This document shows, in pieces, positions 4,061 to 50,564 of a stretch of 64,000 bases of DNA. Origin of the DNA: Isoetes taiwanensis (taxonomy: Eukaryota > Streptophyta > Lycopodiopsida > Isoetales > Isoetaceae); contig JAJEKV010000075.1 of NCBI GenBank assembly GCA_021234155.1, positions 3,567,720 through 3,631,719 on the forward strand. Direction: 5' to 3'. Position 1 is the first letter of the stretch. The number at the start of each line of letters is the position of its first letter. Made by a program: the position numbers and the translations under genes. The notes beneath the pieces were generated by a model, which saw only the letters and a list, made by a program, of their open reading frames with translations, searched no databases and had not been told where the DNA came from.

Positions 4061-4149
4061 TGTATATTGATGAGTGATAAATGCATATAAGAGATAAGAA
4101 AAATATAAGAGATAAGAGATATGCAAGGGTAAGTAAATTACTATCATAA

Positions 4150-4345
4150 TTAGTAACGGGTGCCCTCACGCTGTCAGTCTTTGTTAAAAATACATTAGGT
4201 TGTGGGATGTTACTAGAATGGGTGTACTGACGCTGCCTGCCTTTGTTCAAACTATAATAGTTGGGGATGTTAATATTAGACCTGCAGTTCGACGCCTAAG
4301 TTTAACAAGAATATATTAGGTTGGGATGTTGTATTAGTGTCATTT
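4150..4345. repeat. Degenerate tandem repeat, about 67-bp units, GGGTGCCC hairpin
   Basis: Three imperfect units, each with a GTAACGGGTGCCC-type start, a short inverted repeat, CTTTGTT and ATATTAGGTTGGGGATGTT. The partner at 50565-50760 is better preserved and shows GCCCGACGTTGCCGGGC hairpins. Copy 1 has lost most of the CTG/CCGG symmetry. Confidence 0.6.
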
Positions 4346-9715: not shown

Positions 9716-12345
9716 TTATATGTCGTTGACAAAAAATAACCCCCACCTCCACGCCACCCTAATGATAAACCTAACACTATGGGTATATCGATGATATACC
9801 AATGGTATAAAATACTCTGCATATTTATACCAATGGTATGTGATTAAAACCCTATTTATGAATTCCATGGTATGTGGTTCCAAGCCATGGTTTGTGTCCA
9901 TAAAACCACTAGTCTGGCCCGTGATAAACCACTAGTCTCAAGGTCCGTATTAAAACCATTGGGGTGGGACAACGGAATTGTGTATAAATACTAAGGTATC
10001 AATACTTGTTGTATTTATACCCATGTTATGTGTGATTCCAAGCCATACTCATACATTGTCCGTGATAAACCACAAGTTTCAGTCTCAGATAAACCACTAG
10101 TCCAGGTCCAGATAAACCACTAGTCCTGTCCGTGATAAACCATAATGGGGTAGATATTGGAATTGAGAGTAAATACTCAAGGTATCAATACTTGCTGCTG
10201 TATTTTATACCCATGTTATGTGATTCCAAGCCATACTCATACATTGGGTCCGTGATAAACCACTAACCAGGTCCGTGATAAACCACTAATCATGGTCCGC
10301 ATTAAACCATAATGGGTAGACATTGAATTGAGTATAAATAATTAAGGTATCAATACTTGTTGTATTTATACCCATGGTATTATCTAAAGCCATACTCATA
10401 CATTGTCCGATAAAACCACTAGTCCGTGGTCCAGATAAACCACTAGTCCAGGTCCGCATAAACCAATGGGTAGACATTGAATTGAGTATAAATACTCAAG
10501 GTATCAATACTTGTTGTATTTATGCCCAAGGTATGTGATTCCAAGCCATACTCATATCGCTAGTCCGTAGATAAACCACAAGTTTGTGTCCGATAAACCA
10601 CTAGTCCGGTAGTCCAGATAAACCAATGGGTAGATATTGAATTGAGTATAACACTCAAGGTATCAATACTCTGGTGGCATAGTATGATCTCCAAGCCATA
10701 CTCATACATTGTCCGTGATAAAACCACTAGTCCAGGTCCGTGACAAACCAATGGGTAGACATTGACTTTATATAACACCAAGGTATCAATATTTGTTGTA
10801 TTTATACCTGCTGCATGTGATTCCACCATCCCTCACATTGTCCGTATTAAACCAATTAGTTTGTGTCCGTATAAACCACAAGTTTGTGTCCGTGATAAAC
10901 CACTAGTCCGTGGTCCAGACAAACCAATGGGTACACATTGAACTGAGTATAACACCATGTATCAATACTTGCTGTATTTATACCCATGGTATGTGATTCC
11001 AAGCCATACCATATCGCTATCCGATAAACCACAAGCTTCCAGGTCCGTGATAAACCACTAGTCCAGGTCCGTGATAAACCAATGGGGCATACATTGAATT
11101 GAGTATAAATACTCAAGGTATCAATACTTGTTGTATTTATACCTATGCATGGAATGATTCCAAGCCGCATCACGTTGTCCGATAAACCACAAGTTTTGTG
11201 TCCAGATAAACCACTAGTCTCAGGTCCGTATAAACCAATGGGTAGATATTGAATTGAGTATAAATGATTCAAGGTATCAATGCTTGGTGGTTTTATACCC
11301 ATGGCATGTGACCTGCCTACACCATACATTGGTCCGATAAACCACTAGCTTCAGTCCAGATAGCACTAGTCCTGCGGTCCAGATAAACCACTGGGTCTCA
11401 GGTCCGCACACAAACCAATGGGTAGACATTGGAATTGAGCATAAATACCAAGGTATCATCATTCTGTTGTATTTATACCCAAGGCATGCGGATTCTATGC
11501 CATCCCCTCACATTACTGGGTCCGTGATAAACCACTACTTTGTGTCCAGATAAACCACTAGTCCGTCCGCACAAAACCAATGGGGTACACATTGGAATTG
11601 AATATAAATACCACTCAGATCAATACTTGTTGCATTTATACCTACGGTAATGTGATTCCAAGCCATACTCATACGCTGTCCATAAACCACAAGTTTGTGT
11701 CCGTGATAAAACCATTACGTTCAGGTCCGTGATAAACCAATGGGGTACACACATTGAATTGGAGTATAAATACTCAAGGTATCAATACTTGTTGTATTTA
11801 TACCATGGTATGTGATTCCAAGCCATACTCACGCTTGTCCGTGATAAACCACTAGTCCAGGTCCAGATAGTCCACTAGTCTCAGGTCCGCATAAACCAAT
11901 GGGGTATTACATTGAATTGAGTATAAATACTCAAGGTATCAATACTTGTTGTATTTATACCCATGGTATGTGATTCCAAGCCATACTATACGTTACCCAT
12001 GGTATGTGATTCTAAGCCCCCACTTTTGTGTCCAGATAAAACCACTAGTTTGTGTCCGATAAACCACTAGTCTCAGGTCCAGATAAACCATTGGGGTGGA
12101 TAATAATGGAATTGTGTATAAAATACTAAGGGTGTAAATACTTGCGTATTTTATACCCATGGTATTAAAATTCCAAGCCATACCTCTACATTGTCCGTGA
12201 TAAACCACTAGTTTGTGTCCGAGCAAACCCAATGGGGTAGACATTGAGTTGGGTATAATACTCAAGCGATAAATACTTCTGTGTATTTATACCCATGGTA
12301 CGCCATTCCATATACTTTATACATTGTCTAGGATAAACCAAGACT
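9716..12345. repeat. Satellite array, about 160-bp unit, about 15 copies
   Basis: A landmark GTATCAATACTTGTTGTATT recurs near 9990, 10180, 10345, 10500, 10655, 10780, 10955, 11115, 11270, 11450, 11610, 11775 and 11935, so the period is about 160 bp. Each unit has GGGTAGACATTGAATTGAGTATAAATACTCAAG, the landmark, TTATACCCATGGTATGTGATTCCAAGCCATACTC, and then two to four copies of a 20-bp subrepeat of the form GTCC-nn-GATAAACCACTA. Unit length varies because the subrepeat number varies. Open frames in the array are repeat-derived and not genes. Confidence 0.93.
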
Positions 12346-17480: not shown

Positions 17481-20400
17481 TTTTACTAACAAATACATTC
17501 CCGATATTCCCCAGTGTGCATTACAAACGGGCAACAAAGCGACCGGATGGGGCGTAGATTCATTTGCAGAGAGCCGCCCGACAGTGGATGGACGAGAGTG
17601 GGCTAATTACGCCAACCGCGACACCGCAGGTTGGGTACATCACTTTTGCAGCACCGGCCGCACTCCCCATTAGATAGCCAGATACCAGGTTCTAGAGTTT
17701 TTTCATTTGTACTTGCGCAGTTGTATTTGGTAGGTTCTAGAGTTTTTTCATTTGTACTTGTATGTTTGACAGGAATATCGAGGCATATGGTCGACTGTCG
17801 CCGCCCTGGGTCTCTAACAAGCCTCGCGGCACACATAGTTTGGGCACTTATCGGTACCGACGCACCCGGGTCCCCCCATACAGCGTACGCGTGAATCGGG
17901 TTCTGGGGCGTGTTCGATTTAGGGATCGCGCTATTGGGCACCATAATGCATATCACAGAGAGATATGTGGTGGCTATCGAGGGGAACGCGGGTCGCCCTG
18001 TGAATGACCCTTCGCAGCCCATCCCTCACGATGAGGAGAGGGAGCGCCAATGACATCGAACGGGCAGGATGCAAATGGAAAGCAAATGCGCAAGAGCGTA
18101 ATGTAATCCGCATGGCGACAAAGTGCAGACAGCGCGCAGCTTTTAACGCAGGACGACCGTCTCAACGCGCGGCTCCATGCCCGCATTTGCTAGGCCTGCA
18201 GAAGATACCCTCGGCCGCGTGATGAGGCATTGGACAGTCGCCCGCAAGATCGCCAGGCATAATGGAGGGTGATGCACCCTCTATACCTCGCAGCAGGAGG
18301 CCCTGCACGCTTATGATCATCGTGACGCAACAACGAGGGAGGATCTCGTGATGAACGCGGTACCAAGATGAGTGGATGAGCCACGGATAACGCAGAGCCC
18401 CCTCCCACCCTACACCCGAGGAGATAATGGAGTATGCAACAAGGCCGGGTGCGTGAAGAGGAGCAAAAGAAGGGGGGCATTATCGCATGAGAGCGTTAAC
18501 CGCGGCAGAGCGTACCACCGTGGTAGAGCATCCATCGGTCGACGCTAAATACTCAACCCCACACTATGGAGAGAAAGCAAATAATCCACAGCTATAGCTT
18601 TGAGACACAGATTTGCATTTCGGGCATGTCGCCCCACAAAGATAAAGACACTGACCGACAGGCCATTCTTACATCACGCCGCATTTACGCATGTGTCCCG
18701 AGCAGCCTATTGAGGACATACCGCACGCACTGCTTCATTCACACGCCACCTCCATCAAGATGTGATAGAGCCTCGGTTTTCGAGGCCCATCTTTGATGAG
18801 TCAGCGAGAGCCATCAAGCACATACGCCGAGGCCAGAGGAGAGGGTTCGCTCCCTAGCTTGGCATCATTGGTTTCACCTTTTCCTCCTACCGGCAGATGC
18901 ACATGACCGATACCGGCAGGCATAGGGATGTGGCTGAGGGTTCTTTCTCAGACCGGGATGGAGTTTGGGGCAAGGCACGCTTTATGCCTACTATTTGTCG
19001 CGCAGCCTATGGGTGGGTTTGAGGTGGCAGAGAGGCACGATGCACGGTAAACATTGTGGCTACATCCTGTTTGATGTTGCCTCTATTTCCTCGGGAGGAG
19101 GTTTATATTTTTGGGGACTCGCATAATGCATCGGATATGCCGCCGAGGTATGGCGGTAGCGCTGATAGCAGCACACCACCCCACGCACCCACAGATCTTG
19201 TGGAAGGCTCCTGGCCGAACGCATGTCATTGTTGGCCGCTTCTTTGCGGCGCTTGGATGCAGGAGCGCAGCGTAAGGCAATCGTTGAATCGCTGAAGAGT
19301 GGGAGGCGATCACGTCGTGGTAATTATCGAGCACGCGGTCCTAGCACGATTTCATTCATGTTTGTCAACCTTTTCCCCACCATGTAGCACGATGTGCAAA
19401 GGTCGATGCATCGGGCCTAACCGCATGATAGATCCACATTTGCAATGGTGGACCTCGCCGGGTTCGAAGATCACCAGACATGGCTCGACCTCGCCCCCCA
19501 CGCATTCGTGATACTTCATGGGAGAGCTTGAAGCATCATTTGGCCCATCCAATATGGTGCGGGCATAGTCCCTATCCCCTCTCTGTCTCCACAGTACTCA
19601 TGCAAAGGTGAGCTGCTGCGGGACACTGCACGCTCGGTGCATATTGCGCACTTTTTGAGTACGGAGAGACTCCCGTGGCCCAGCGCTTCGAGGGCTTTTT
19701 GGTGCATGGATTCCCCACCGCGTGGTGGGCCATACCGACTCAAATACGAAAAAACCCGCTGACGCATAACCGCGAGTTCTTCATGGCCGACTTCCTTTAC
19801 TTTTAGTTGTCTTCAATCGCGCAACAAGTCCTTACCGCGGTTGGGGCCGTGGTATTGCGGTACCGGGGTCGCATTTACACACTCATGCCCCGACCACCGA
19901 CGCCGCTTTGTAAATCGGTTGAGCCGCTGGGCGCCAAATCCCCAAAGACAAAACCAAAGATTGGTCTTAGGTGCCCATGTCTGCCTAAACATCCCGATGT
20001 CATGAAGGCTTTCCTATGGCCGAGACGCACATAGACTTGCGTGTTGACACTACCCTCCCCACCACCTCATTAATAATTTACATATGCCCCAAGATGACAT
20101 CCAAAGCCTTTCACCTTGCAGTGCACCAACATGCATATCGACGAGGGATGTGGCACGGCCAGCGAAACTTCTTTACACTCATTGCTTTGTTCCACGCCGC
20201 CGGTGGCATATTGGTTCAACTACCAAATAATGAGGCGCGCCATAGTGTACTTTTTTACTATGCAATAGAAACATTGTCATTGATTTAAATGCCATGTACC
20301 ATCCACATCATCACCGAAAGGATCGGGCAAATCGAGGCGACGCCGTGGAGCCTCCTCCCACGCGGTGGGCTGGCTACAAGCCAAAGGTATGAGGCTACAC

Positions 20401-20700
20401 GACGCGTGCTTGAAAAGTTACGCTAATCTGCGTTCTCACCGAAGTTGCATAGCCCTCGATTGGGGACGCTTTCTGCATAGATCACTAACGCCCTTAGCGA
20501 CGCCGCACCTCCGCAAGCAATGGAGCCGTGTCTTCTCGCCTATGTGTTCTTGGTTCATTACCTCCGCCCGCCAAGATTGCATTTTCACATTGCCCGCAAC
20601 CCACCGACTAACCACCAATCTCAACGGTTCGCCCACTACAAAAATGGGGCGCCGATGTGGCCGAGCTCCGCCCCGGCCCCGATATAGCACTTCAAGAGTT
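17481..20700 (-). pseudogene. GC-rich coding-like region, product unknown
   Basis: About 3.2 kb that is much richer in GC than the surroundings, with few long stop-free stretches but protein-like composition in several frames. By position it follows the SWIM-like end of the minus-strand MULE transposase, so it may encode a C-terminal extension or a second element gene. MULE relatives often add OTU or Ulp1 proteases, but I see neither catalytic signature. A 29-bp direct repeat (GGTTCTAGAGTTTTTTCATT...) occurs twice at 17688-17760. Strand is uncertain. Confidence 0.3.
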
Positions 20701-21340
20701 AGGGACGGTACCTAAAGAGAAACATATCTCCTCGCTATGAGGTGCTTGCACACCGGACATCAGTAGGGAAAGGTGCAATAGTGCTGCATCATCAAAACCG
20801 TGATAAGCGGACCCCATCATCATCCGCCTCGATGCGATGGACGCCTTCAACGGCCTCGCCGCCCACTACCATGATTGTGTTTGCATCTCCCTCAAACCGC
20901 TGCAGTTAGATCTTGTGCACTCAGACGCCGCTTGGCGATAGGATCGCTGGGTTGTACCTACCAAGTCACCGCAAAGGAAGGGAACGCGGATTAGAATGGA
21001 AGAGCATTCTTAACTATGTGCTTTGCTAGAGACATACCTAGGCTCCAACACTCCGCATTCCAAGGCCAAAATTGTGCCTCCTGGGATCATCACCATTTGG
21101 ATATCCTACTAGCCAACAAATTAGAGTGTACATCCAACAAGTTAACCTTGCAACCCAAAGTTTGCACCTTCAACACCCTCCAATGGGCCTCCACGAAGTT
21201 GGTAGTGTCCATGTATCCATGGGGCCACAACCTCCGTGTCGCCGCCATTTCCTTCCTTCCTTCCACAAACGGTTGTGGGCAAGATAGCTGGGATGCCAGT
21301 GTGTATTCTCGCACGCCAACTACGAAACGATATTTCTAAT
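20701..21340 (-). pseudogene. MULE-like transposase, C-terminal part with SWIM-like finger
   Basis: Minus-strand translation contains TTNFVEAHWRVLKVQTLG (about 21212-21158), which fits the segment after the DDE catalytic core of MULE transposases, where an Asn-rich turn, Glu, His/Trp and a Leu-Lys helix precede the SWIM finger. Further on, CKHLIA (about 20752-20738) fits the Cys-x-His half of a SWIM zinc finger; the first Cys pair is blurred by frame changes. The matching upstream half of the protein is at 29740-31761. Three or more frame disruptions make it non-functional as read. Confidence 0.55.
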
Positions 21341-21403
21341 CAAGAGCTCGACAAAGACACTTACTCAAGATCTCGCATCTACCATAGAACAAAGTTTAAA
21401 TGA

Positions 21404-21411
21404 TAAACGGG
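21404..21411. repeat. Left terminal inverted repeat of inner element
   Basis: TAAACGGG, the exact reverse complement of CCCGTTTA at the right end. It marks the switch from GC-rich transposase sequence to AT-rich sequence. Extension of the repeat beyond 8 bp is imperfect. Confidence 0.6.
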
Positions 21412-21730
21412 CAAATCATTGAAACGAGAGCAAAAGGAATATTCTCAAAGATTCCCTTTTTTTTACAAAAAAGGGGTAAAATGAGGTTAAAAAAAAAAAG
21501 ATGCATGAAATTCTATTTTGACCCCGAAATGACTAATTTTTTTTTGCAAATCTAAGGAATTGACTTTTTAAAGTGTCACTTTTCTTAGCAAAAAAGAATG
21601 TTCTTAAAGTATGTTTTAAGAGAGAAACTCTAATTTCGTGAGGATAAAATATTTAACAAAAAAATTGAAGTAAGTCCAGAATTGAAACCTAGTATTCTCA
21701 AAATTTGAAGATAGAATCTTCATATTCACA

Positions 21731-24700
21731 TCAAAATTCTATGCCTTTTTCTAAGACTCCGCTTATGTGCAAAAGTGTGAGGAGGATGAGAGAGGGATCC
21801 GTGACGCCCTCATGTTCATTTATGCCATCGTCATCACCTTCACTTCTTTCATTTGCCACCGAGGAAGTGCTTGAGTTATCTTCCTCATCACTATCAACGC
21901 ATCGGTGAAGCATTGTCACCACCTTCTTCATCATCTTCTTCATAATTACAAGCTTTTTAAGCAAATTGATAGTCTTCAAAGAGACGATTGTCGATTTCAA
22001 TTTAAAATCATAGCACAATATAGTCACGCTATTAAGGTTCAAATTTCGTCCCTACAACCCACCTTCTTGACTTTCTCCCTTTTCCTTGGCTTCTCATTTC
22101 TAACTCATATCTACCTTCAAAAGCATTTTTCGAGCGTGTTGCAAAGCCAATGAATCTTGAGTTTAGTGACTAAGCCTTCCTCCTTGACTGCGGTCAAGCA
22201 CTTTTTGCTATCCGTAATCCGGCCGACCTTTGTCATCCTCCTCCTCGAAAGAGCAATTAGCATACCTTTGGTAATTTCGCGATATTACCTTTTTGGGGCT
22301 CATTCCCCGCCTTGGTCCGAGGTACATGACTCGGGCCCCTCCTCGCCTTCTACTGCAGGTGCAAATGTAGCACCGCTTGGACCTTCTTGGTGCCGGGGTT
22401 GATGGAAGGTGTTAAGCCATTGAAATGGTTCTTGCAACCGCCTTAGAGCTATATTTTGTACAACAATTTTCTGCTCGAGAAAGAAATTACTCCACCACAT
22501 CCCATCTTCTTCTAAGAAGTACTTAAAGCCCGAGGAAATTCCATTTTCAATGGCTTTTAAGGATGACTCGGGGGTACTTTTCTTCCGCTTGGACTCCTTA
22601 GGATTTTTGAGAGGAAGTTGCTCAAAGACGCGCTCTATGAAGGAAGTGTCCGAATATATTTAAGGAAGCTGCATCCTCCGGGCGGACTCCAAATTTTTAG
22701 TTGTGGTATACTTCTTCCCTCAGAAGAAGCTTTGGCCATCCTTCAAGTAGAACTTGATATGATGTTGAAAGGTGAGATCATTCAACTTGTTCACAAATTT
22801 TGTTCTCTCGCTTGAACGTTGAGAGAAAACAAACTCTCTCAAATCAAAGCCAGCCTCTTTAAGAAGATCGACCACCGAGTAGGAGTGTAAGAATCTTCAA
22901 TAATTAACTAAAGAAGGAAGACAGAAAGCCTTCTTCCTTCTAAGGCGCATTTAAAAATCACAACATTTGGTCAACTGATCATGAGTGTGGCCTACAAGTA
23001 AGAAACCGAGCTTCACTTTTCTAAAGATCCCTAGCTCCACTAACATGGCACAAGACGCAAAAGAGTGTTTGATTCTTGTTCTCCCTTGTAGTATTGTCAA
23101 GCTGCAGATAAAGCACCGGTGGTAATTGCTCTTGCTCGCACAGACCTTGTTAAGAATTGTAATTGTGAGGTTCGGGTCACCATGCAAGTTTGATACGCCA
23201 AAAATACTTTGCACCTTAGACTTCCTTTGAAGACCATAGCTCCTACAAGGTGGACTTTAACAAAACATTCCTCCGCACATCTTTAGGAATGTTCAAGAAA
23301 TGTGGTAGAGTTGTTTTTTTTTTGGTCCATTCCATCAATCACAAATGTATATGTATTGCAAAGGACGCTCAAGAGCTTTTTTTTTTATGCTTGGCAAGCT
23401 TTCTTCTCTCTCTCGCTTGTTGTTCACGATGTCTTGCAAGGTTCTCATGTACAATATCTCAGAGAAGAAATCAAGTCAAAGCATTTTCTCCAAAACAAGT
23501 GAGAGATTGAGAACATGAACTTACTTCTTTCGACCTCTCGCCTTTTGCAGCTTCGTTGACTTTAATTCTCGCACACCTCGAAAGCAAAATGTGACATTCT
23601 ATGTTTTCTAGGAATTTTCACAAGACCGAATTCACTTTTCCACAAATCGGGTGAAGTGTGAGTAAGAGATGTGCCAAGCCGAAAGTGCAAGTCTCTTTGT
23701 ACTCATTAAAAACATCTTTTTGGTGATGTTATCATTTAAATGATACATGTTGTCTGTTAGGTAGCTTCTCACATGTTTCTCTAAAAATATTTCTCCATCC
23801 ATGACACAAAGAAGAAGGGCATGCATGGTTACAACTCTTCTTGGTCCACAATGATCATCGATTGTGGATTTTTGTCCAGCCTTTTTGTGTATTCTAGACA
23901 TTCTTGTGGACCCTAAACGGTGGACAACCATAAAACATTTCTCGCAAACTTTTGACGGTTAATGTAGTGCAAGAAGGTGTTGCGGTCCGGTCTTTACATG
24001 ATAAGCTAAGTAGGCATTCGATTCCGCCAATGTCATGGAACTCAGAAGTTGTCTCTAATCGCCAGAATTTAGCCATGTTAAATTGTTGATGCAACCCAAT
24101 GAGCAAAGATTTAGTTCTCAAAAGTCTCCTCATTTTCTGCTCATCCATAAGATTTCTTCTTCTTACAGAGGAGCAAGCCCTCAAACCAAAATCCACCTTG
24201 AATTTCTTTGAAGATTGGTCGAGAACATGTAATCTCTTTGTTCCTCGCTGGTGTCCATCTTCTTCGATGAAACTTCTACTGGGGTGACTTCCTCCGTTCC
24301 GAGTGGTGTGCTTGTAGAGGAAAAACAATTCACGTGAAGTTGTTCCCTAATAGGCTGGGTACAAAGTGTTAAAGGGGTGGTGATGGCCCATAAGAGGTTG
24401 TGGCATCACCGTTTTTGTACCATCTTGAAAAGGAGTTCTTGCAAACATCTCCTTTAGAGCGGACCGAATTCTCGCAGAATCCATGTGTCACAACCATTGT
24501 TGTGTGAAGAGGAGTGCATGCCGAGCTTCGCCTTCATTTGTAGTGAAGTCCCGGTGAGAGAAATTGTAGTGAATCTCACAAATTTCTTCAGGTTTTCTGG
24601 TTCCTTGTATGTTTGCACGGCGAGGCTTAAACTACAAAAGGGGGGGGGTAGCTTGTTCTTGAGCACCCTTTGTTGTGGAGCTTCAGAGGTCCCGGATGGA

Positions 24701-24984
24701 ACAAAGGGTGGTGGCAACCTCGCCCGAACCGGTGGTGATTCTTTGGAAGGAGATGCCGCAGGCCGCCTACGTGACTTGGTGACGGCTGGAAGGGTGGTGG
24801 AAGTCCGTTACGTATCCGGACTCCTGACTTTTTCAAGAAGCAAGAACGATGAAGTAGAGGTAGGAGCTCTGAGAAAACCGGCCTTCGTAAGAAACGACGT
24901 TGGTCCCGAAAGTGTGTCCTCTAAACTAGACGAGCTTGAGACAAGGAAAGGTGGTGGAAGTTTGTTGACGGCGCGGTTTGTCAT
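21731..24984 (-). pseudogene. Transposase/integrase-like protein, DGMDQ-LQLDN-GHTHD family (probably DUF7869)
   Basis: Role is unproven; I believe databases call this family DUF7869, a protein spread through eukaryotic repeats and probably a transposase. Its conserved blocks appear in order on the minus strand, in shifting frames: a Pro-rich N-terminus from an ATG at 24984 with four LPPPF words; a Lys/Arg-rich helix near 23400; DGMDQKKTTLPHF (about 23335-23295); VLYLQLDNTTRENKN (about 23115-23070); AMLVELGIFRKVKLGFLLVG with HTHDQ (about 23045-22975); a Trp-rich EEDGMWW-like end (about 22500); and an acidic Ser/Asp/Glu tail (about 21905-21830). The invariant Asp/Asn of LQLDN and the His and Asp of GHTHD are present. 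At least six frame breaks stop it being an intact gene as read, though sequencing error may cause some. It is divergent from the methyltransferase gene. Confidence 0.75.
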
Positions 24985-26274
24985 CTTAAGAACCGCAAAA
25001 CAAAGCAGAGTTTAGATAATGTTTCTCATCACAGAGCTTTTCTTATTCCGTAATACAAGCCCGCCTACTACAAGTAGAAGTTCCCGCAACAATTAAGCCG
25101 AAAGGCAAACTAAAAGCTATTCCCCAATACACTAGAGCGTAAAAGAAGGCCAAACGTATTCCACTTCACATAGAAAACGAAAGCAAGACGGAATGGACAC
25201 CTTTAAAAGGAAATTTTGGCGCCTTCGGGCCATGTGATTCCGGGGCCTCGAAATGAAGTCAGCCACAAATACCTTCGATTATAATATATTCGTGAGTCAG
25301 ATTCGATACTCATAGAGAAAACATGGAGAGGTGAGTAAGAAAGTACAAGGTACAATCATTTGTGTGTTTGCTTATTCCCAATACACTTACCCCTTTCTCT
25401 CGGCGCGGTGTATTCCCCAATACACTTTCGCTTTCGAGGGGAGGGCGCACGCGTATTCCTAATACACTTTACGCCTCGAGGGAAGGCGACGTGTATTCGA
25501 ATACACTTACGCCTTTTGAGGGTAAGTGTATTCGAATACACTTTCGCCTTCCAAAGGCTTAAAGTGTATTCCTAATACACTTTCGTGTTCTTATGTTTTG
25601 TAAGGTTATTTTTCCGTGATTTTGTAGTAACTTTTAGGTGTTTTTTCCGCTTCTAAAACTTGTTTAGACCTGCTTTTTGTCAAGATTGCAAAGTGTTGTT
25701 TTGGCATTTTTGTCCTCTTTTTGCCCTTTGTTTTTTCCTTTTCGCAAGACATTTTGTATTCTCGAATAGTTTTTTGCCACGCTTTCTAACAAGATCGTGT
25801 TTTACACACAATTTGCAATGCATAAGAAGGCAAAGAAACAACAACAGAGGACCGTTAAAATCCCAACGAAACCGCACCCACCCACAGAAGGGTTGAGGAG
25901 ACATCTCATACCGCTATCTACTTAAAAACTTTCAAACTCAATGGTTTTTTACAAGGGGTACTTCGAAAGTACAAAGACACTTACTTTCCTACATGTCCGG
26001 TTTGAGGCCGGAGCAAAAGGTAACGATGAGAGGGAATTTGTCCCGCATGGGCACCATCCGTGCCGCGGAGTGAAGTAGCCGGGGAGTCCTGGCCACCGAG
26101 GGAGACCGCCTTTTCGCACATCCCAAGGCTTTATTCATGTTGATGAATCCTATTTTAGAGTGGTGAAAGTAAATCCTCATCCTCTATATAAGTATGTTTC
26201 ACTACTCAAGAAGAGGTCGCCTGCCCATCATCAACTACGCTCGGCAAATAACGAGCTTAAGACTTCCCCTACAA
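24985..26274. promoter_or_regulatory. Divergent intergenic region of inner element
   Basis: About 1.3 kb separates the start of the minus-strand DUF7869-like gene from the first plausible Met of the plus-strand methyltransferase gene. It should hold both promoters and includes the palindrome array at 25370-25585. No TATA box or known plant element can be assigned with confidence. An unmodelled 5' exon of either gene could also lie here. Confidence 0.4.
25370..25585. repeat. GTGTATTC palindrome array 1
   Basis: Five or six inverted repeats of the form AAGTGTATTC-n-GAATACACTT. One is perfect: AAGTGTATTCGAATACACTT at 25524-25543. They are spaced by GC-richer linkers that themselves pair in places (CGCCTTTTGAGGG with CCTTCCAAAGGC). 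The strand-symmetric structure makes spurious mirrored open frames on both strands. Confidence 0.85.
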
Positions 26275-29200
26275 ATGAAGTCATCACAAGGGGAAGAGGA
26301 TGACCAACCGAGCCCGAAAGCAAAGGCATCATCACAACTGGGAGTCCATCACAACCCGCCGAAAGGCCACCGCCACCACCACCAAAGAAGCGCCAAGGGA
26401 AACAGCTTGCCGCTAAAGAGCCTAAAAAAGCGTGACGGCTTTAATTGCGCAGAGGATATTTCCGAGGAACCTAAGAAGAAGAAGGGGAAGGGTAAAGCAC
26501 CCGTGTTGCTATTAAGGAAAAAAAAAAGTTGACAAAACAAATTTAAAAGATGGAAGAGATTAACCCGCACAAGTTTGTGCAAGGTGTCATTTATTTGCCG
26601 GGCCACTTCAATGAAGCTTCCAATCAAAAAAATGAAGCCGGTGAAAGGCCACTTCAGTGTTCGCAAAATTTATGCCGATCACTTAAGGAACCCGAAAGAC
26701 GTAATAAGGAGCAATCCAAATGCTCATGTGGCCCCAATAGTTGTCCTTGTTGACAGGAAGAGTGCAAAACCCCCAGACTATGACAGAGAAAACGCAGAGA
26801 CCTACACTCACTACGCCTTGGGAGGCAATCACAGCCTTTAAGGCAAGAAGGCAACTTTATAAAGAGAAGAAGAACCCGAGGTACCTCTCCGCCCCCTCCT
26901 CAAGGCCGCTTCATCGGGGTCTTACCGATGAAGAAGAAGCAAAATCGCTGCCAACACCCACAATGCCGACAACTAATATAAACTAAAGATGAGCTTCACG
27001 ACAATATCCGCTTCATGCATTGTGGAGTACGTAATTTTCAAGGAAAAGTACGGGTGAGGACCTCAAGAAGCCGCTTTTTTTCCTTGGAGCTTAAGGAGGC
27101 GTAGCCATTGAATGTCGCCGAAATATGACGAGGCCAACAAAAGGCGCTTCTCATTGGCCACGCATAACCGGTTCCAGCTTAGCTTTTAGAGATGGCAAGG
27201 TAAGCACAAAATGTATTCCGAATAGCAAATCAACTATTTAACGTGAATCGCCTTGAACAGATTTGGGAACCTGTGACCGATATTTACAATGTTCGAAATG
27301 GGGAGTTAAAGAGCAAGGGAAAGGAGACAAATTAAGAAAAAACCCTCGACGCACTCCAAAAAAAAAAATGACCATTACCGCCTCAAGGAAATGCAGTGGC
27401 TTCTCCGACACGAGCTTCTCGAGCAAAGCCTTCTCCAAAAGTTGTTGATAAGGAGTTTAGCCTAGAAGAAATGTCAAAGGAATTGCACAAGTAAGTTCTC
27501 CGGACACAAACATTAGTTATTGCATGTTAGATTCCCAAAAACATCTACAGAAGGTGTATTCCGTATCACACATGCCTTCCTTTACACGGGCAATGTGTAT
27601 TCCGGAATACACATTGCTTGTCTCTAGAAAGGCATTAGGTATTCCTAATACACATTGCCTGTGGAAGGAAGGCATGTGTATTCCTAATACACATTGCTCC
27701 TCCAATGTTGGCCTCGTATTTCCTGAATACGCATGCTCCCTTTAGAGAAGCAATCAGATTCCTGAATACACATTGCTTTTCTAGAGACAAGCAATGTGTT
27801 TGTCCCAGAGCGTAACTATTTTCTCGCATATTGTTTCGAGGTAGCATCACAAAGTTAACCGGTTTGTATTCCGTATACAAATAGCTTGACTTTTATTTGT
27901 TTTTCTTTTTACGCTGCCTTCATTCTTTCGCTTAAACTCATTGTTTCCTTAACGCCTTGCGCCCAAAAGAACGCCATAACATGTCAAACATGTTTGATGG
28001 AGCAAATAAACGCCGACACATGGGAAAGGTGCAAGGAACTCTACCCAATTGCCACATCCGACGAAGACATTTGTGCAATATTCACCAAATTTTGAGGGTC
28101 GGGTAATTACTCTTAGAATTCCTTTTCTCGCAGACAAACGATCTCTTGACAGCTTGTTGTTTTGTTTTTCTTTAGAGCAAAAAGAAAAATAAAGACCTAC
28201 CCGAGGGCTTTATGAATTTGGTTAGAACAAAGACGAAGAGAGAGGTCGTTAGTAAAGAAGAACTGTGGAGCCGTAACCATCCGACTACGAGAGATTCTCG
28301 CATGTTTGATCAAAACAATTTATATTCAATCATTCATGGTGATTGCACGAACCTTGTCTTTAATCGGTTAAGCCACGTGACTTTACTTTGGTTATTGCTG
28401 ATCTTCCCTATGGGTTTAAGCTTAAAGACAAAGCAGATACGACGACCAGCCCCTTCAAATTTTCGTGAGTTTAATGCTTTCATTGAAGGAATCAAGCAGA
28501 TCTCAACGCCAAACGCTCCATTCGAAAGCATGCACCGCTTGGTGGAATCAGCTTCAAAAATCACTTTGGTTCTCCGCCAGTGTGATATGAAAACCTTGTT
28601 CAGAAGTCTTATTCCGTATCACAATTACTTTTCTTTTAATTACGTGAGTGTGTATTCCTAATAGTATTTCCGCTTCGGTTTTCAAGTGTTTTCTTTGTTT
28701 TTGCTAACATCACTTTAAATGCTTCACTAGGTACAAAACTAACATCAACTACCATGGTGGAGGACCAAGGTTGCTCAGCAAGGTAGAGTACCTTCATGTA
28801 GCTTATTGGAGTTTTGATGGGAAGAGGACCATGGAACACTTTAACACCGCCACCAAAAACTTTTCAAACGCCCTAGAGTTTCCAGCAGCCTTACGTGAAT
28901 TGGCAGGACCCAAGTGCACAAGGCAGATTGTGAAATCACTACCGAAAACCACAAAGCTCATCAACCATCTCCGACATGTTCTCGGCCCGTGAGATTGGGT
29001 GCTTGATGCTTTCTTCCGGTTCGGGTACTACTATCGCATGTGCACTTAAGAAGGGCCGCGAACCGTAGCCGTGGATATTGATAAGGAGGTCAGCATTTTG
29101 TGAAGATGAGACCGGGTGCCTTTACCTACTTTACCGTGATGAAAATCAAGAGTTAGGGGCCAAGTCTTCATCCGATTATGCTAAACTAACGCCCTCGTGA

Positions 29201-29398
29201 GATACAAAATTTCCATTCTCCAAAATCACTAGACGATGAGGCAACCTTTGCAGAGCTTAAAGAAGTAGCTTTAGCTACCATTCCGAGGACAAGGAGGATA
29301 AAAACTCAAGTCTCCAAAGAAAGGAGCAGATAGAAATGTATGACGAGATGGCGAGAGCAAAGAAAAAGAATGAAGAGGACTATGATGTAGATCTTTGA
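26275..29398 (+). pseudogene. ParB-like domain joined to beta-class DNA N4/N6 methyltransferase
   Basis: Predicted to methylate an exocyclic amino group of adenine or cytosine in DNA. Blocks in order: Met at 26275 and a Lys- and Pro-rich tail resembling a nuclear signal (26275-26530); a ParB/Srx-like domain (26550-26990) with NPNAHVAPIVVLVD and THYALGGNHSLKARR, matching the ParB pattern ...PI.V....Y.L..G.HR..A; a linker (27090-27490); SIIHGDCTNLV (28317-28349); TLVIADLPYGFKLKD, with DLPY as catalytic motif IV (28400-28414); NYHGGGPRLLS and EYLHVAYWS (28750-28815); WVLDAF then GSGTT, SAM-binding motif I (29018-29032); IACALKKGR, AVDID; stop at 29396. Motif IV before motif I defines the beta class, typical of bacteria and phages (Pfam N6_N4_Mtase). 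GT-AG introns fit at 28103-28175 and 28644-28730, and a donor at 27491 opens a palindrome-rich intron, so the gene is adapted to eukaryotic splicing. Several single-base frame breaks disrupt it; some fall at places where CTG is expected. Confidence 0.75.
27535..27800. repeat. GTGTATTC palindrome array 2, in a methyltransferase intron
   Basis: Six or seven inverted repeats of the array 1 type. The best has the 18-bp core GTGTATTCCGGAATACAC (27595-27612) and stays perfectly paired out to 28 bp (27590-27617). The linkers also pair: ATTGCTTGTCTCTAGAAA near 27612 with TTTCTAGAGACAAGCAAT near 27775, and GCCTTCCTTTACAC near 27573 with GTGGAAGGAAGGC near 27660. The array can therefore fold as nested hairpins. 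It follows a splice donor at 27491, so it is probably intronic. Confidence 0.85.
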
Positions 29399-29726
29399 CT
29401 CATCGCATATAAAAAGTATCATTATTTATTAAATGAATCTTCAATATTGATGTACAACAATTTATTAAAAACATAATACTTTTTTTTCCTTTCTATTCCG
29501 TGCTTTTTTTTGTAATGCTTTCAGCCTCTTCAAGTCTATGCCTAAATTTCGCTATTTTATGATTTCTATTTCATAAGTACAAAGTTTTCGCTCTAATGAT
29601 GGGCCAAAATGGCATGAAAAAAAATTGCGAACCTCCATAAATTCTCAACAACTATCAAAAAAGGCTTATTTTAGAAACATGGTATTTTTTTAAAGGGAAT
29701 CTTTGAAACGGGAGTGATGCAACACT

Positions 29727-29734
29727 CCCGTTTA
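29727..29734. repeat. Right terminal inverted repeat of inner element
   Basis: CCCGTTTA, the exact inverse of TAAACGGG at 21404. To its right the sequence returns to GC-rich MULE transposase coding sequence on the minus strand. Confidence 0.6.
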
Positions 29735-29739
29735 ATTTG

Positions 29740-31761
29740 CAATCGTGTTATAGGCATTGTAGAAGTGATTTTCCAAGTGCTCATACCGCCCGTGCCTGCT
29801 CCAACATGAGATTAGATAGCCTTTGCCGCACATCTTGGCGATGAGCTGGTCTTGTATCCTCTGCATGAGGTTGTCACGCCATGCTCGCTTGCAATGGAAC
29901 CAACAAGATATGACACAACCGGGACCGCACGGGCATTACATCTAGGAAAACGCAAATAGTGACAAGCAAAGTTCTTTACCGCCGCCGCCGGCTCGCTGAA
30001 ACAAGATGGGTCGCTGGCAACCGCTTTCTATGGCCACTCTCCCTCTCCGCCCATGTCAATGGTGATGGACCTTGGCCTTACATGCCCCATCCGCTCAAAC
30101 ACCGCTGTAAGCGCTTTTCGTGATTTTCTTTGTCCGCCGCGACCCATTCTTATGTGTACACAAAGATGTAGAAGACCGATATCCAACCCCGCGATGCAAT
30201 CGAACCACGGGCAAGCAGAGAGCGTATCCGCCACATGTTGGTGCCAATGTCGAAGTCGAGGGCCCACCCCGAAGCTTGTTTCATCAGACGCCGCCCCACG
30301 ATATACCGTCATCTTGCGTAATCCAGGGATCCATGGGCGCTGCTCCGATCCGCAGCCGCGGAGACGCTGAATGGTCGGTGGTAGAGGACCTTTTCCCGCA
30401 TGTGCCCAAATTCTCTATGTTCTCCTCAAGGTCGTCCCACGGGCCATCGCGCCACCGCCAAAACATAGTCACGCTCGGTGCCAAGGCAAGTGAGTGCTGC
30501 ATTACCATAAGCTTCCACTAGACATGACATTCGCCACCAAACATTCGGATACTTGTTGCGTAGACGCTACACATCCTCCCCGCTCATGTCAAACCGATAT
30601 GTGACGCTGCCGGGACCGCCGCGGGTCTCCTCCCCCGAGCATGGGACCCATCGCCGCCATGTCCCATTCGTAAATTTTGTGCCGCCGTTCACGCTTTCAT
30701 TAACCGCACAAAATTTCTATCGATTAGGGTGAACTCAGAGACCATACATTGGGCGCCAGATGGATCGTGCACTTAATGCGCCGTCGGGCTAAGAAATATC
30801 CAGTCCGCCACTGCCCTCCGCAGATGACCATTCGGCCGCATCAGGCGGTTTATACGCGGCGGTACCACGCCTCGCGGACTCGACCGCCCGCTGGTTGTGG
30901 GCTCATACCGATTCCTTCACCCAAGTGGCAAAGTAAAATCGCCCACCTCATTGCCGAATCACACCCCCTGGCCCCGAGCGCGCTGTGGATGTGCACAAGA
31001 CGGACACGGCCTCGCGACTCGCGACTCTCCCACTCGATGTCGGCCCGGCCGACAGCAGGTTAGTCTCATGTTGAGGGAAGTCATTATCCTTCATGTACAT
31101 GCGAACCTTTGCAACCGCACACACGCAGTAATCGGTCATGTATTCCCAAATGATCCTGTACTTCGCTATGCCCGCTCTCCCACCGGATCTTATTTCTTTT
31201 TGGGTTCTCCACAAGTGTCGCTATTGGCAATGTGGCATCAAGGCCACTAGATTGTTCCAATCCTCTACCCAAGGCACACACTTATGTGGATGCGATCCCA
31301 CCCTATGCAAATAGGAAACATGACCGACGACTCCCACGTGATAGCCCCTCACGGATTGCTCCCACCGCCCCTCATATCTATGCCACTTTCGGAAAGAACA
31401 TGCCCGTCCGTCTCTCGTGGAAGGGGAGGAAAATGGTCCGCGATCCCGATGTCGCGACTGACACGGGTCTACCTTCGCTGACTGAAGCAATCATAAGATC
31501 ATATGTTGCTTTCAAGAAATACCCATGCACACGAACTCCTGCCCGCTCTTTGCTTGCCACCGCATGACGGACGATACATCCGAACCACCTCCCCGCATTG
31601 CATTGAACCACCGGGCCACGAGGTGCACTTGTGGCAACCGGACGGTGTAGAGCAATCCAGATCCGAATGGTCGATGAATCCTCCCAATAGTCGCTATTGT
31701 CGCCATCCGAAAGCTCGCTCAAGGAACCCTCATCCTCATAATCAATCCGACATTCTAACAA
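29740..31761 (-). pseudogene. MULE-like transposase, N-terminal and catalytic part
   Basis: Minus-strand reading begins with an acidic Ser/Asp/Glu-rich stretch (31745-31690). It includes IWEYMTDYCVCAVAKVR (about 31140-31080) and RSITIDMGGE (about 30070-30040), a candidate for the second catalytic Asp strand. It reaches CWFHCKRAWRDNLMQRI (29906-29856), the Cys-x-x-His..Lys-Arg-Ala-Trp helix typical of MULE transposases between the second Asp and the final Glu. The sequence ends at 29740 next to the inner element and continues logically at 21340 on the same strand. Frame changes are frequent. Other DDE families with a similar C-x2-H helix cannot be fully excluded. Confidence 0.55.
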
Positions 31762-32850
31762 AGCCTATCAAACAAGCCGCACTATGCCGGGAGAACTTCG
31801 AACTAAGGCGGATCGCTTTGCCGCCTTTTCACGCATATGGTAGCCCCGGCTTGTTTTATATTGAATGCAAAATCGCTTTTGCTGATTTTCAAATTTTTAT
31901 TTTTTCCCCTCCTACTTTCTACAAATACGACAGACCTTATCTTCAAAAATCGCTTAAGCGATTTCAGATTTTTTTTGGGCGGTACCGATTGTCGACAAAG
32001 CCGACGAAAAATCGCTTTTGCCGATTTTCAAATTTTTTTTTTTCCTCTTGCTTTCTAAGACCGATATGCTTTTATAATGAAATTGAGTGAGACCACTTAT
32101 GTGCACCGACCACTAAATTACATAGATGTCAAAATTTTTGGTGCTACTCTCAAATGTTTCAGATTCTTTCACATGAAGAAAATACATAGGTCTCACAAGA
32201 CATGGCTAATTCAAACAAACATACTACATAATAGACAACGATAATAGAAAACACCAAAGCTTCACTCTATGCCCACTTCAAAGCCTCGATGAGATCCTCC
32301 ATATCGAACTCATCAATATGTCTTCGACCGATGATCCACCCAATCATCCAAATTCTTGATAGAATGACCACCGGCCGACGATGAGCTTGTTTACCATAGC
32401 CCCGCATTGTCTTTTTTGCTTCTTGTAAAGCTTCCTAAACAGAGGTCTAACGTATTGTGCATCCAAACCTCCTCCATCTTCAAAGAAATTTTTCGCCTTT
32501 GCCCCGTAAATAAAGGCGTTTCAAAGATATGAGGCACTCCTCCGCCCCCCTATCGAAGTTGTTCCTCGTCGCCATTCCTTATGAACCCATCGCCTTTGGA
32601 GGAGCTTTTGTGAATTGGGCGCTTAACTTCTCTCGCTCGGATCCCGCCTATCTCGCTTCACCTCCACCAAACCGATTCAAGATGGGCTAAGATTGGGGCC
32701 CACTAATATGAGACCGCATTTCTGTGATGGTGTGTCCCCGTCATGCGCCTTTGTTTCGCCATTTTGAGTGTTCTCGAGAAGAATGTAAGAGAGCACGAGG
32801 AGCAAAACCCTATAATCTTACCCCTATCAAACAAGCCGCAAAAACGAGGA
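31762..32850 (-). other. Possible 5' exons of outer-element gene, unrecognised
   Basis: Minus-strand sequence at 32690-32270 gives protein-like runs such as FDRGAEECLISLKRLYLRGK and DEFDMEDLIEALKWA before a stop. It may be an upstream exon of the MULE-like gene or a separate small gene. Two near-repeats of CCTATCAAACAAGCCGCA occur (31765-31782, 32825-32842). Confidence 0.25.
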
Positions 32851-34175: not shown

Positions 34176-35000
34176 ATACAAGATAACCATTCGCCCCCAG
34201 CAAGAATAGTCGTTGCAAAATATGGCGCCAGAATGCCAAGGTAACTAGAGCCGAAAATACTTTATTCTAAAATCTTTGGCACAAAGCTTCTATATACTTG
34301 CAAAAGGAGCAACAGACATGAGCCATAGCAGGAAGCTCCATAGATTTAGTGCTTAACTTCCTTATCGGAGTTTGTTTTTTCCAAAGTTTCCAGATACATA
34401 TTGCATTGCCACATTGGTTTGAGATATGGTAAAAAGGCTAATCCAAGACCATGGCGCTTACTCATTCGCCATAGGCGCATGATGAATGTAAGAAATAACA
34501 AGAAGAACGATTCTTCCAGAATTTGTGGTTTTGTTATTAATTTAATTGATAAAAATATAAATAAACTATCTAATTCCTTTCGTAAGTCCATCTAGGGCGC
34601 ACAAGTGGCCAAATATGCCCAATTGATCAAGTGTGTTACGGCTGAGATCAACCCAACGTAATGGGCACCATTAATTCCCTTGCCACCTCACCATATGGGC
34701 AATTAAATGTCTTGCCACCTCATCATGTGGCATTGATTGCACGCAATACACGTGGCAACATCTAGGCCATTCATGCAGCACATTCGATGGCCGAGATCGG
34801 TTCAACTCAAGCTGCCCCCTTCTATATAGAGATTTTGGTGTCGCCAAGGTCCGATCTCGATCCGACAAATTCCGCATCCGGGCATAACTTAAATCTCTAT
34901 GTAGAAGGGGGGTGCTTAAGTTATTGTATATATATTATGACGTGGTTCTACTATGAGGGACTGCACAAATTCGACTGGAAACCAATGCAAAGTCATTCAA
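34176..35000. other. Intergenic, with hairpin and GGTGCTTAAGTTATT motif
   Basis: 34346-34591 has a hydrophobic minus-strand frame of no recognisable family. CCTTCTATATAGAGATTT (34827-34844) pairs imperfectly with AAATCTCTATGTAGAAGG (34891-34908), forming the arms of a small fold-back just before GGTGCTTAAGTTATT (34911-34925). Confidence 0.45.
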
Positions 35001-35830
35001 TAAAGATTCTATAAGAATTCCCCTAGATTCTTTATGATTCTATGAAGATTCCCCTAGATTCTCAAAGATTTTATGAAGATTCCCTTAGATCTCCTATATT
35101 CACAAAGATTCTTTTTAGATTCTCCTAGATTTCTCTATGTAGATTCTCCTAGATTCTCCAAGATTTTATGAAGATTCCTCTAAATTTCTTTATATTTCGC
35201 TAGATTCAGAGAAGTTCTCTTAATATTCTCATAGATTCCCCAAGATTTCCCAAGATTTCCCAAGGTTCTCCAAGATTCCCCAAGATTCCCTCTAGATTCC
35301 CCAAGATTTTATCCCCATTCATTCTTCTTTGCGAAGATGCATGCAAGAAAGGGGGGTTTTTTTTACCATTCAGTATTTGTATACTTACCATTAGGGGGTT
35401 TTTTTGCCATTATCTGGGGCAAAATATATACTTTAGGGGTTAAATTAGCTTCCACAGATCAGTATACTAGGGATGTTTTTGGGCACACTTCGAACGCAGA
35501 TGTCCATACCCTTTTATTACTAAGTGCATCCCCCGGGGATTTTATATAGTTCTATTGAATTCTCCAAGATTTGATGAAGATTCTCCTAGATTCCTTTAGA
35601 TTATAGGAAAAATTCTCCATGATTCTCCAAGATTCTATCATGATTTCACTAGATTCTCAAAGCTTATAGAAAGATTCCCTTAGATTCCCAAAGATTCTCT
35701 TAAGATTCCTCTAGATTCTCTAAGATCGTATGAAGATTCCCTTAGACTTTACATGATTCCATCAAGATTCCTCTAGATTCTTAAAGATTCTATGAAGATT
35801 CCCTTGGATTCCCTTAATTTCTCCAAGGGG
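35000..35830. repeat. AGATTC-rich minisatellite block 1
   Basis: Irregular tandem words of 14-22 bp built on AGATTCCCCTAGATTCT and TCAAAGATT. The block is interrupted at 35340-35545 by unrelated sequence containing GAACGCAGATGTCCAT and a CCCCCGGGG palindrome. Similar blocks are at 40100-40440, 41040-42200 and 43140-43290, all in the same orientation. Confidence 0.85.
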
Positions 35831-36176
35831 GGTTCACCATATGTACACGTACGTGCCAACTGCGTGAACGTAAAGGGTTTTTTTAGTGGTTTAGTCGGCC
35901 AGTATACGATTGAGCTCTCACGCTTTTGGTGTTCTTTTCCCAGCTTTGAACGTTAAGGGAGGAAAGGCGGGAAGGAGGGATCCGTAGGTGGAAGATTAGG
36001 GCAGCTTCAACCATTTCTAAGACCAGGAGCTATCCGTTTGCCTATTTGTGGTTTATTTAGTGGGCTTCATTTTCTTCTTTGGCAACAAGAGAGCTCAAGA
36101 AAACGGGTGATGGATGGCTCTTTTGATCTCTTTTGTCTTTATGGATTCTTTGTTACAATTGTGCATGTGTATGCAG

Positions 36177-36867
36177 AATGTACAACAGAAAAAATTGATA
36201 TCCTTGAAGTTGGGATCATCTCGCCATACTCTGGCCAAGTGAAAGCCATAGAAAGCCGTCTACAGGCTTTCAAGTTCAGTGTCTTGCAATTGGAGGTTAA
36301 GTCTATAGATGGATTCCAAGGGCGTGAAAAGGACGTCATATTAGTTTCGACTGTACGCTCTAATGGCTCGGGAAATATTGGATTTCTTAAAGATTATCGG
36401 AGATTAAACGTTGCAATAACTCGTGCCAGGTTTGAGACATTTTCTATTTGCATCCATAAGTATATCTGATTGATAGGGTTTCCATCGCAGGAGCTGTCTA
36501 TATATTGTAGGGCATGCAAGCACTTTAAGTGCAAGAGAATGCATCTGGAAAGAATTGATAGATGATGCAAAACGAAGGGATTTCTTTATGAATTTTGGAC
36601 GAAATGAGGAAGTATGTAAACTGGTAAAAAGAATAAAGATAGAACTCAATCAACTTGCGGATCTGCTAAATCCTTCTTCTATACTGTTCAATGACACCAC
36701 TTGGAAGGTACTTAGCATTTCTTTCTCTTTTTGACATGTAGAATAGATGGTAATTCTATGCTAAGTTTTGCAGGTTCTATTCAGCAAGGAGTTCATAGCA
36801 AGTTTTATTGGGATTAAATCTGTACATGTTAAGCAGAACACAGGAGGGGCACTCTGTTTCTTCGAGG
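36177..36867 (+). pseudogene. SEN1-like superfamily 1 RNA/DNA helicase, 3' fragment
   Basis: Three exons with GT-AG borders read in frame: 36177-36429, 36491-36707 and 36774 to about 36867. Exon 1 has [17 protein letters not shown] (motif IV), [21 protein letters not shown] (motif V region) and [17 protein letters not shown] (motif VI). Exon 2 continues CLYIVGHASTLSA and a helical tail ending NDTTWK. These are the last helicase motifs of the UPF1/SEN1 family, closest in style to plant SEN1-like proteins. The Walker A and B part is absent, as is the normal C-terminus, so it is a captured or truncated fragment. A 30-bp piece of exon 3 is tandemly duplicated just downstream. Confidence 0.85.
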
Positions 36868-40040: not shown

Positions 40041-40120
40041 GTGGGTTTTTTTCTGCAGGACTCTAACGCAGATGCCATCTGTCCATATATAGAGGTGCAC
40101 CCCCCGGGAATTTCTCAAAG
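40041..40120. repeat. ACGCAGATGYCCAT..CCCCCGGG motif, right copy
   Basis: A GGGTTTTTTT tract, CTAACGCAGATG, CCAT and a CCCCCCGGG run match in order the sequence at 35465-35540 on the other side of the gene fragments, in the same orientation. Both sit inside or beside AGATTC minisatellite blocks. Confidence 0.6.
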
Positions 40121-50470: not shown

Positions 50471-50564
50471 GCTCATATAATTGTATATTGATGAGTGATA
50501 ACAGATATAAGAGATAAGAAAAATATAAGAGATAAGAGATATGCAAGGAAGTAAATTACTATCA

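Follow-up and report, generated by a model that had tools for sequence, protein, structure and literature searches.

A DNA transposon of the quillwort Isoetes taiwanensis with a ParB-like/DNA methyltransferase gene and phased palindromes

Why would a mobile element of a land plant carry a gene for a bacterial-type DNA methyltransferase, and where on the DNA might its product act? The question is raised by a 64,000-nucleotide stretch of the Isoetes taiwanensis genome (the window; contig JAJEKV010000075.1, positions 3,567,720 to 3,631,719), where an initial annotation had seen two divergent genes sharing one unit with inverted ends. The unit is a cut-and-paste DNA transposon of 8,362 bp with inverted ends (21388-29749; Table 1). 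It carries a presumed transposase gene of the DUF7869 family on the minus strand and a ParB-like/DNA methyltransferase gene on the plus strand. Arrays of a 16-bp palindrome of the TGTATTCCGGAATACA type, repeated every 41-42 bp, lie in the region between the genes and in introns. Our main explanation, which we hold to be an even call, is a lycophyte transposon whose ParB-like/methyltransferase protein would be recruited to these palindromes and would mark the element.

Ends, mobility and gene linkage

The published assembly, for which Nanopore and Illumina reads were combined with optical mapping, comprises 1658.30 Mb in 204 scaffolds and 909 contigs, according to the consulted part of the genome paper (PMC8566536). 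We searched 1,658,258,908 bases in 1,110 contigs. A methyltransferase query of 2,849 bases matched 31 places at full length, the window's among them, and the 20 next-best were taken as sister copies, against which the window stretch was compared by BLAST. The left boundary of similarity fell at 21404 in 17 of the 20 (at 21402, 21411 and 21939 in the remaining three), and the right boundary at 29746-29758 in 18 and at 29688 in two. Similarity extends 16 nucleotides outside TAAACGGG on the left and 15 nucleotides outside CCCGTTTA on the right, giving ends that read AACAAGATTGCGTATTAAACGGGAGC ... CACTCCCGTTTAATTTGCAATCGTGTT, and the inverted terminal repeats are conserved across the sister copies. 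Further inward, AAAGGGAATCTTTGA has just two exact matches within the window, one by each element end.

An exact 4-bp direct repeat flanks all 16 sister copies with both ends recognized, out of 20 examined. Recognition allowed at most 4 edits, and four copies went unscored because the right end (L035, L049), the left end (L041) or both ends (L040) were not recognized. The target-site duplications include AACA, TGAA, AGAG, CTCT, GAGG, CACG and CCAG, among others. The diverged left end of the window copy was missed by the recognition script, and its duplication, ATAG, was assigned by eye. When 188 and 247 bases of flank were joined with one ATAG and searched genome-wide, 39 of the 41 match rows spanned the junction at 82-91% identity with at most ~27 bases net extra; of the remaining two, one is the right flank of the window copy itself and one a fragment of 35 bases. 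The window element is inserted in an older repeat, and its empty site is seen. The 17 full copies (these 16 and the window's) differ pairwise by 4.0-18.5%, with a median of 8.2%.

Both gene regions are present in all 20 sister copies, including L051 and L052, in which the stretch 24562-26462 does not align to the window. For the wider genome we scored the best 150 of 3,609 first-look candidates from a search with the ParB exon and the best 150 of 9,902 from a search with DUF7869. These sets contain 19 pairs of a DUF7869 and a methyltransferase gene at most 8 kb apart, where 0.22 would be expected by chance, and all 19 are divergent as in the window. Five looser pairs lie 8.9-19.2 kb apart, three of them divergent and two not. 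The two divergent genes in one unit are real. The link between them, originally drawn from co-location at a single site, holds across copies and pairs, and none of the 20 sister copies shows the separation of the genes that had been proposed as a test. The inverted ends TAAACGGG/CCCGTTTA are likewise present; as true limits of the unit they were displaced outward, to 21388 and 29749.

Other origins of the locus were considered and rejected. An artefact or a chance co-location is ruled out by the copy comparison, the pair statistics, the target-site duplications and the empty sites. The right-end hairpin could suggest a Helitron, a reading ruled out by two inverted ends and 4-bp duplications. 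A prophage, a giant virus or bacterial contamination is countered by flanks that are themselves members of a repeat family found in this assembly, by the introns and by the spread of the family across many contigs. In scans of viral contigs, no relative was found with the stitched methyltransferase protein and none by the DUF7869 motif.

The two predicted proteins

The plus-strand gene is predicted to encode a beta-class N6/N4 DNA methyltransferase. Unaltered open reading frames (ORFs) of sister copies L041 and L047 match PF01555 (N6_N4_Mtase) at 64.5 and 65.1 bits (cut-off 26.7). A sister-copy ORF also matches the phrog_67 DNA methyltransferase at E 3.8e-19 and the NCBIfam CcrM model at 43.9 bits, below its strict cut-off of 830. 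It finds 2,068 phage records at E ≤1, and all 30 matches listed are annotated as DNA methylase or methyltransferase. The stitched frames of the window copy match PF01555 at their C-terminus only and below the cut-off (21.5 bits, E 2.6e-4); this stitched protein found no match in NCBIfam, PDB or phages, and an irrelevant PHROG at E 0.39. In beta-class enzymes the catalytic motif stands ahead of the S-adenosylmethionine (SAM) motif, and here DLPYG comes first and DAFSGSGTT second, as seen in different copies. Over the SAM-binding half, the best solved relatives are the adenine enzymes CcrM (7.8e-9), MboIIA (1.3e-7) and RsrI (8.2e-7), and cytosine-N4 enzymes are far weaker (8s9m 0.014, PvuII 0.094). 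Because of these adenine-enzyme relatives and of DLPYG as the catalytic motif, the sequence favours N6-methyladenine (6mA) rather than N4-methylcytosine (4mC) as the predicted product.

Ahead of the methyltransferase lies a domain whose assignment as ParB-like is weak but consistent. The exon matches TIGR03764 ParB (E 0.0011, 18.6 bits; cut-off 143.75) and the ParB-like phrog_1033 (E 0.0073, 17.1 bits; a family with no set cut-off), with further weak overlapping matches to DUF6551 (E 0.038, 13.9 bits; cut-off 26.8) and phrog_723 (E 0.16). The functionally uncharacterised phrog_30771 matches a stretch overlapping these at E 0.0063. In an hhalign comparison, a two-sequence profile of the domain scored 26.9 against eight phage or viral ParB-like proteins (GGNHSFKARRQL block), with 22.6 for the best of 60 column shuffles and 11.6 for the reversed sequence; at the tool's own settings the score was 22.9, about that of the best shuffle. 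The eight-protein set is not independent, because two came from a pattern modelled on the element's own motif and three from loci found thereby. The canonical ParB motif of the cytidine triphosphate (CTP) clamp is GERR; it is not present in the element's domain, which has GGNHS in its place. A further ~240 N-terminal residues precede the domain (window 25819-26550) and are seen in sister copy L037 (3805-4713, minus strand), where a Pfam scan of this part found nothing over cut-off.

The minus-strand gene belongs to the DUF7869 family. A single-frame piece (22954-23256, minus strand) matches PF25273 at 44.4 bits (cut-off 26), the stitched frames of the window gene reach 90.2 bits, and the intact relative L055 reaches 184.3 bits. 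Open frames among the scored candidates extend up to 987 residues. No mention of DUF7869 by that name was found in the open literature searched. We infer that the protein is the transposase, as the only other gene of the mobile unit and from its acidic blocks DGMDQ, LQLDN and GHTHD. In L055 (514-2313, minus strand) the stretch after the domain (KGMLVAV..FWLAKVL..LKVHW) resembles, by eye, a Tudor/SH3-type module; a Pfam scan of it found nothing over cut-off.

Most of what the initial annotation had said of the two products stands. Its DUF7869 call, with DGMDQ, LQLDN..RENKN and GHTHD, passes the family cut-off in the window, and its beta-class methyltransferase with DLPYG and GSGTT does so in L041 and L047. 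Of the introns that it placed in the plus-strand gene, A and B have GT-AG borders that can be read from the sequence of two subfamilies, the acceptor of B being unclear in the window; an intron-bearing gene of this kind inside a plant mobile unit is borne out by the element as a whole. Of its ParB-methyltransferase fusion, the methyltransferase half is confirmed, and the ParB half has matches below threshold only.

Palindrome arrays and their possible partners

If the protein acts on its own element, a candidate site is at hand. Repeat finding located short dyads at two places of the window, with a tandem period of ~39-42 bp. A scan for TGTATTC..GAATACA over the 64 kb placed all 11 dyads inside the element, and five shuffles of the window gave 1-2 each. 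With a stricter core, eight lie in the element and none elsewhere in the window, and none occurred in any of 20 block-shuffled versions of the element. Under the looser rule, dyads occur both in the intergenic region and at intron B in all 20 sister copies, L051 and L052 included. Under a separate, stricter mapping rule the 20 copies hold 161 near-exact dyads. Fifteen of these are in flanking sequence, at L041, L049 and L053. All 146 inside the element fall at 25.0-25.8 kb, in introns A and B or at 28.6 kb, the last with nine, in the presumed intron C, whose donor was not placed. Among the 20 copies, no strict dyad falls in the body of the DUF7869 gene, in the remaining methyltransferase exons or at the element ends, and L038 has none under this rule at all. 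L071, a copy of another subfamily, has seven dyads in the same intron at 40-43 bp steps and one in each of two other introns. Dyads are absent from 11 of 12 DUF7869 loci that do not reach the intergenic region, the twelfth having one, and from three of four loci fetched by an rbcL search.

Genome-wide, array pairs (two palindromes 20-32 bases apart) number 2,483 per strand, and the reversed-pattern control gave 0. At the 50 distinct places listed, the spacing was 40 bp in one, 41 in 19, 42 in 28 and 43 in two, with 36-48 permitted. The core carries ~1.8 bits per position and the flanks 0.5, and the core is constant while the spacers vary between arrays and subfamilies, both partly circular as the units were picked by their core. 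The spacers show partial dyad symmetry as well. The central CG of the palindrome is often TG or CA, as would be expected from host C5 methylation followed by decay.

Our main explanation joins these observations in the following way. The DUF7869 protein would act as the transposase, and the second protein would bind element DNA through its ParB-like part. That part would probably sit at the phased palindromes of the shared promoter region and of its own introns, in a recruitment resembling that of ParB to parS. The methyltransferase part would then methylate nearby adenines or, less likely, cytosines at N4, and the mark may set element DNA apart from host DNA. Such a mark could serve to adjust the divergent promoters, to work against silencing or to confine transposition to a single post-replicative state of the DNA. 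The role of 6mA or 4mC in plants is disputed. We propose, as an inference, that the methyltransferase is brought to the element's DNA in a parS-like way. The complete version, in which the protein nucleates on the palindromes, writes 6mA, sets a large family apart and counters or tunes silencing, is a tentative proposal.

Several points weigh against this explanation. For methylation, expression and binding, the argument for self-marking is one from sequence, and the palindrome data do not single out the ParB-like protein over the transposase or a host factor. In family profile searches the ParB part stays below every curated cut-off, and when its exon was searched against the PDB, the only matches were weak and unrelated (best E 0.056). 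The transposase role of DUF7869 comes from its being the sole other gene. L070, the locus fetched for an rbcL fragment that is the fourth of its set, also has two dyads. Across the genome, an array could be tied to neighbouring element genes only within the fetched copies and at one DUF7869 hit: of two such hits on contigs C1-C64, C46 has arrays 2.2 kb away, and C16 has none among the exact arrays listed. Furthermore, none of the 20 copies of the window subfamily is intact by ORF length (the longest ORFs have 303 residues on the plus strand and 311 on the minus strand). In L071 the first exon is open over 420 residues, and the last has a broken frame and a changed SAM motif.

The alternative that survives best, although we consider it unlikely, is that the palindromes are sites for the transposase or for a host transcription factor, as a promoter or intronic enhancer, and that the methyltransferase acts independently, for example at a recognition sequence of its own. 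Many regulators typically have sites of this kind, palindromes spaced some four turns of the helix apart next to a divergent promoter, and the arrays lie in the promoter region and in introns. However, transposases act at element ends, where the 20 copies have no near-exact dyad. The same core also recurs in the same intron of a subfamily whose synonymous sites are saturated. This shared core in a diverged subfamily points to a partner encoded by the element, which could still be the transposase.

A second alternative, which we regard as improbable, is that the methyltransferase gene was acquired a single time from a bacterium or phage and rides along as a passenger, with no role for the element. 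Accessory genes are frequent in large eukaryotic transposons, according to the consulted part of one account (PMC12477816). The window copy is frame-broken in both genes, and no copy with every exon intact was seen among those examined. Decay of the window subfamily is a more likely cause than sequencing error, because long open frames of both genes exist elsewhere in the same assembly, although single indels are still conceivable. Against the passenger reading stands the conservation of the protein. Between L041 and L071, a single pair of copies from two subfamilies, synonymous differences in the ParB exon number 96 at 128 sites and nonsynonymous ones 35 at 514, and 72 codons of the last exon show 41 at 45 and 1 at 171. 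Since the synonymous sites are saturated, these ratios mean only strong constraint, and they point to strong purifying selection on the predicted protein between the subfamilies. For comparison, the DUF7869 domain has a nonsynonymous distance of 0.145-0.167 between its own distant groups, taken from different element pairs. In addition, 97 of the 150 scored ParB exons are stop-free across the matched stretch, a hand count from a list that favours intact ones and does not cover the other exons, and the same architecture is found in brown, green and red algal elements in the same partial source (PMC12477816).

Similarly improbable is that the arrays are hairpin-forming minisatellites which spread by slippage or yield double-stranded RNA: their tandem period of ~39-42 bp and partly dyad-symmetric spacers would suit it, but the constant core among differing spacers (a partly circular observation) and the tight spacing speak against it.

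Precedents, feature coordinates and other observations

The pairing of such genes in a mobile unit, at first judged unexpected, has precedents. The Ectocarpus element Sola1-1_Ec32 is a DNA transposon with the same protein architecture, a ParB-like domain and an N4/N6 DNA methyltransferase, on the strand opposite the transposase, and its authors suggest that the protein binds and modifies its own transposon (PMC12477816, as far as consulted). It differs from the 8.36-kb quillwort element in its length of 21.5 kb and its brown algal host, and the part of the account consulted does not mention palindrome arrays. The same source cites transposon-borne ParB-methyltransferases from green algae (Iyer, Abhiman, Aravind 2011) and from the red alga Bostrychia (Petroll 2025). 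Sola2 elements also have 4-bp target duplications and short inverted ends; their targets are described as AT-rich in the part consulted (PMC3627910), whereas those of the quillwort element include AACA, GAGG and CACG. The quillwort element has the 4-bp duplication of the Sola superfamily, a likeness drawn from the duplication and not from the transposase.

Phages provide similar fusions. By eye, proteins of Streptococcus phage vb_Spy_7 and Faecalibacterium phage FP_Epona, whose records annotate a DNA methyltransferase only, join a ParB-like N-terminus to a beta-class methyltransferase. An 87-residue piece of the quillwort methyltransferase aligns with the first at 34% identity (86% covered, E 0.04) and with the second at 38% (59% covered, E 1); unlike the quillwort gene, the phage genes lack introns and a transposase partner. 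The bacterial ParB-parS system likewise combines a ParB-like domain with clustered 16-bp palindromes, but the quillwort protein has replaced GERR, and its palindromes are candidates for such a role. The TGTATTCCGGAATACA palindrome differs from the parS sequence.

In the open literature searched (titles and starts of abstracts) no ParB-methyltransferase transposon of a land plant was found, and in the publication on the Isoetes genome, ParB, Sola and DNA transposon do not occur in the main text. As far as these searches reach, the vascular plant case, the strong constraint on the protein and the palindrome arrays are new, and the architecture itself is known from the brown algal transposon and the green and red algal cases cited with it. 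Within that reach, the class of methyltransferase-bearing transposons is extended from algae to a vascular plant, in a genome where transposons hold a large family of genes for amino-methyltransferases of bacterial type. A kept protein, together with a defined candidate cis site, makes the published guess of self-binding and marking directly testable in a land plant.

Table 1. Features of the transposon in window coordinates
Feature	Position	Strand	Remark
Left target-site duplication ATAG	21384..21387	.	by eye
Left terminal inverted repeat	21388..21413	+	window copy diverged; sister copies AACAAGATTGCGTATTAAACGGGAGC or AACAAAGTTGCG...
Inner inverted repeat AAAGGGAATCTTTGA, left copy	21445..21459	-	exact match
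DUF7869 gene, presumed transposase	21730..24990	-	frame-broken here; limits approximate; start by eye
DUF7869 domain with DGMDQ, LQLDN..RENKN, GHTHD blocks	22723..23386	-	90.2 bits, profile 9-178 of 192
Divergent intergenic region with array of TGTATTCCGGAATACA-type 16-bp palindromes ~40 bp apart	25041..25770	.	limits by proposed start codons
ParB-like/DNA methyltransferase gene	25819..29398	+	frame-broken here; start codon 25819 proposed by eye
ParB-like domain (ALGGNHS..KARRQL ... GLTDEEEA ... HNADN)	26632..26995	+	
Intron A (GTAAGC...ACAG)	27200..27260	+	contains one palindrome
Intron B (GTAAGT donor; acceptor approximate)	27491..27963	+	contains second palindrome array, 27556-27880
Short intron, approximate	28101..28175	+	
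Catalytic motif DLPYG	28400..28414	+	conserved in L071
Presumed intron C (acceptor CACTAG; donor not placed)	28593..28730	+	contains degenerate palindromes
SAM-binding motif GSGTT	29018..29032	+	PF01555 match in L041/L047
Inner inverted repeat AAAGGGAATCTTTGA, right copy	29692..29706	+	exact match
Subterminal hairpin AAACGGGAGTG..CACTCCCGTTT	29706..29733	.	
Right terminal inverted repeat CACTCCCGTTTAATTTGCAATCGTGTT	29723..29749	-	copy comparison
Right target-site duplication ATAG	29750..29753	.	by eye; empty sites agree

The flanks of the element (18000-21384 and 29754-32000) are partly GC-rich, at 53-55% in 18-20 and 30-32 kb, and the tested flank (435 bases) is repetitive, with related sequence at 39 or more places. 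Copy L053 sits within a palindrome array like that in the intron of L071 (left flank 302-503, right flank after 8768). With the palindromes in the flanks of L041 and L049, it is possible that the element prefers to insert into its relatives.

Elsewhere in the window, 7-5197 and 46355-51640 form a 5.2-kb direct repeat pair, 86% identical, which probably represents two copies of another mobile element. Large degenerate tandem arrays lie at 9800-12300, 35000-35820 and 40100-42200, with units such as GATAAACCACTAGTCC and AGATTCCCCT. A single-frame piece at 35957-36466 (plus strand) is part of the C-terminal domain of a superfamily 1 helicase (AAA_12, 112.9 bits), similar to plant helicases of the SEN1/MAA3 type. 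Outside the window, the rbcL of L068 aligns over its full length with solved chains, best with 9chz_A (1073.6 bits), followed by chains from rice (1056), tobacco (1039) and Chlamydomonas (1038) and, at about 618, red-type chains; this places it in the green lineage and no more narrowly. Two open rbcL frames, L067 (G000:C1052) and L068 (G000:C840; 475 residues), differ at several residues; one is on an 11.4-Mb contig and the other on a 34.6-kb contig, and the pair may reflect a copy in the nucleus whose frame is open, or a mixture of materials.

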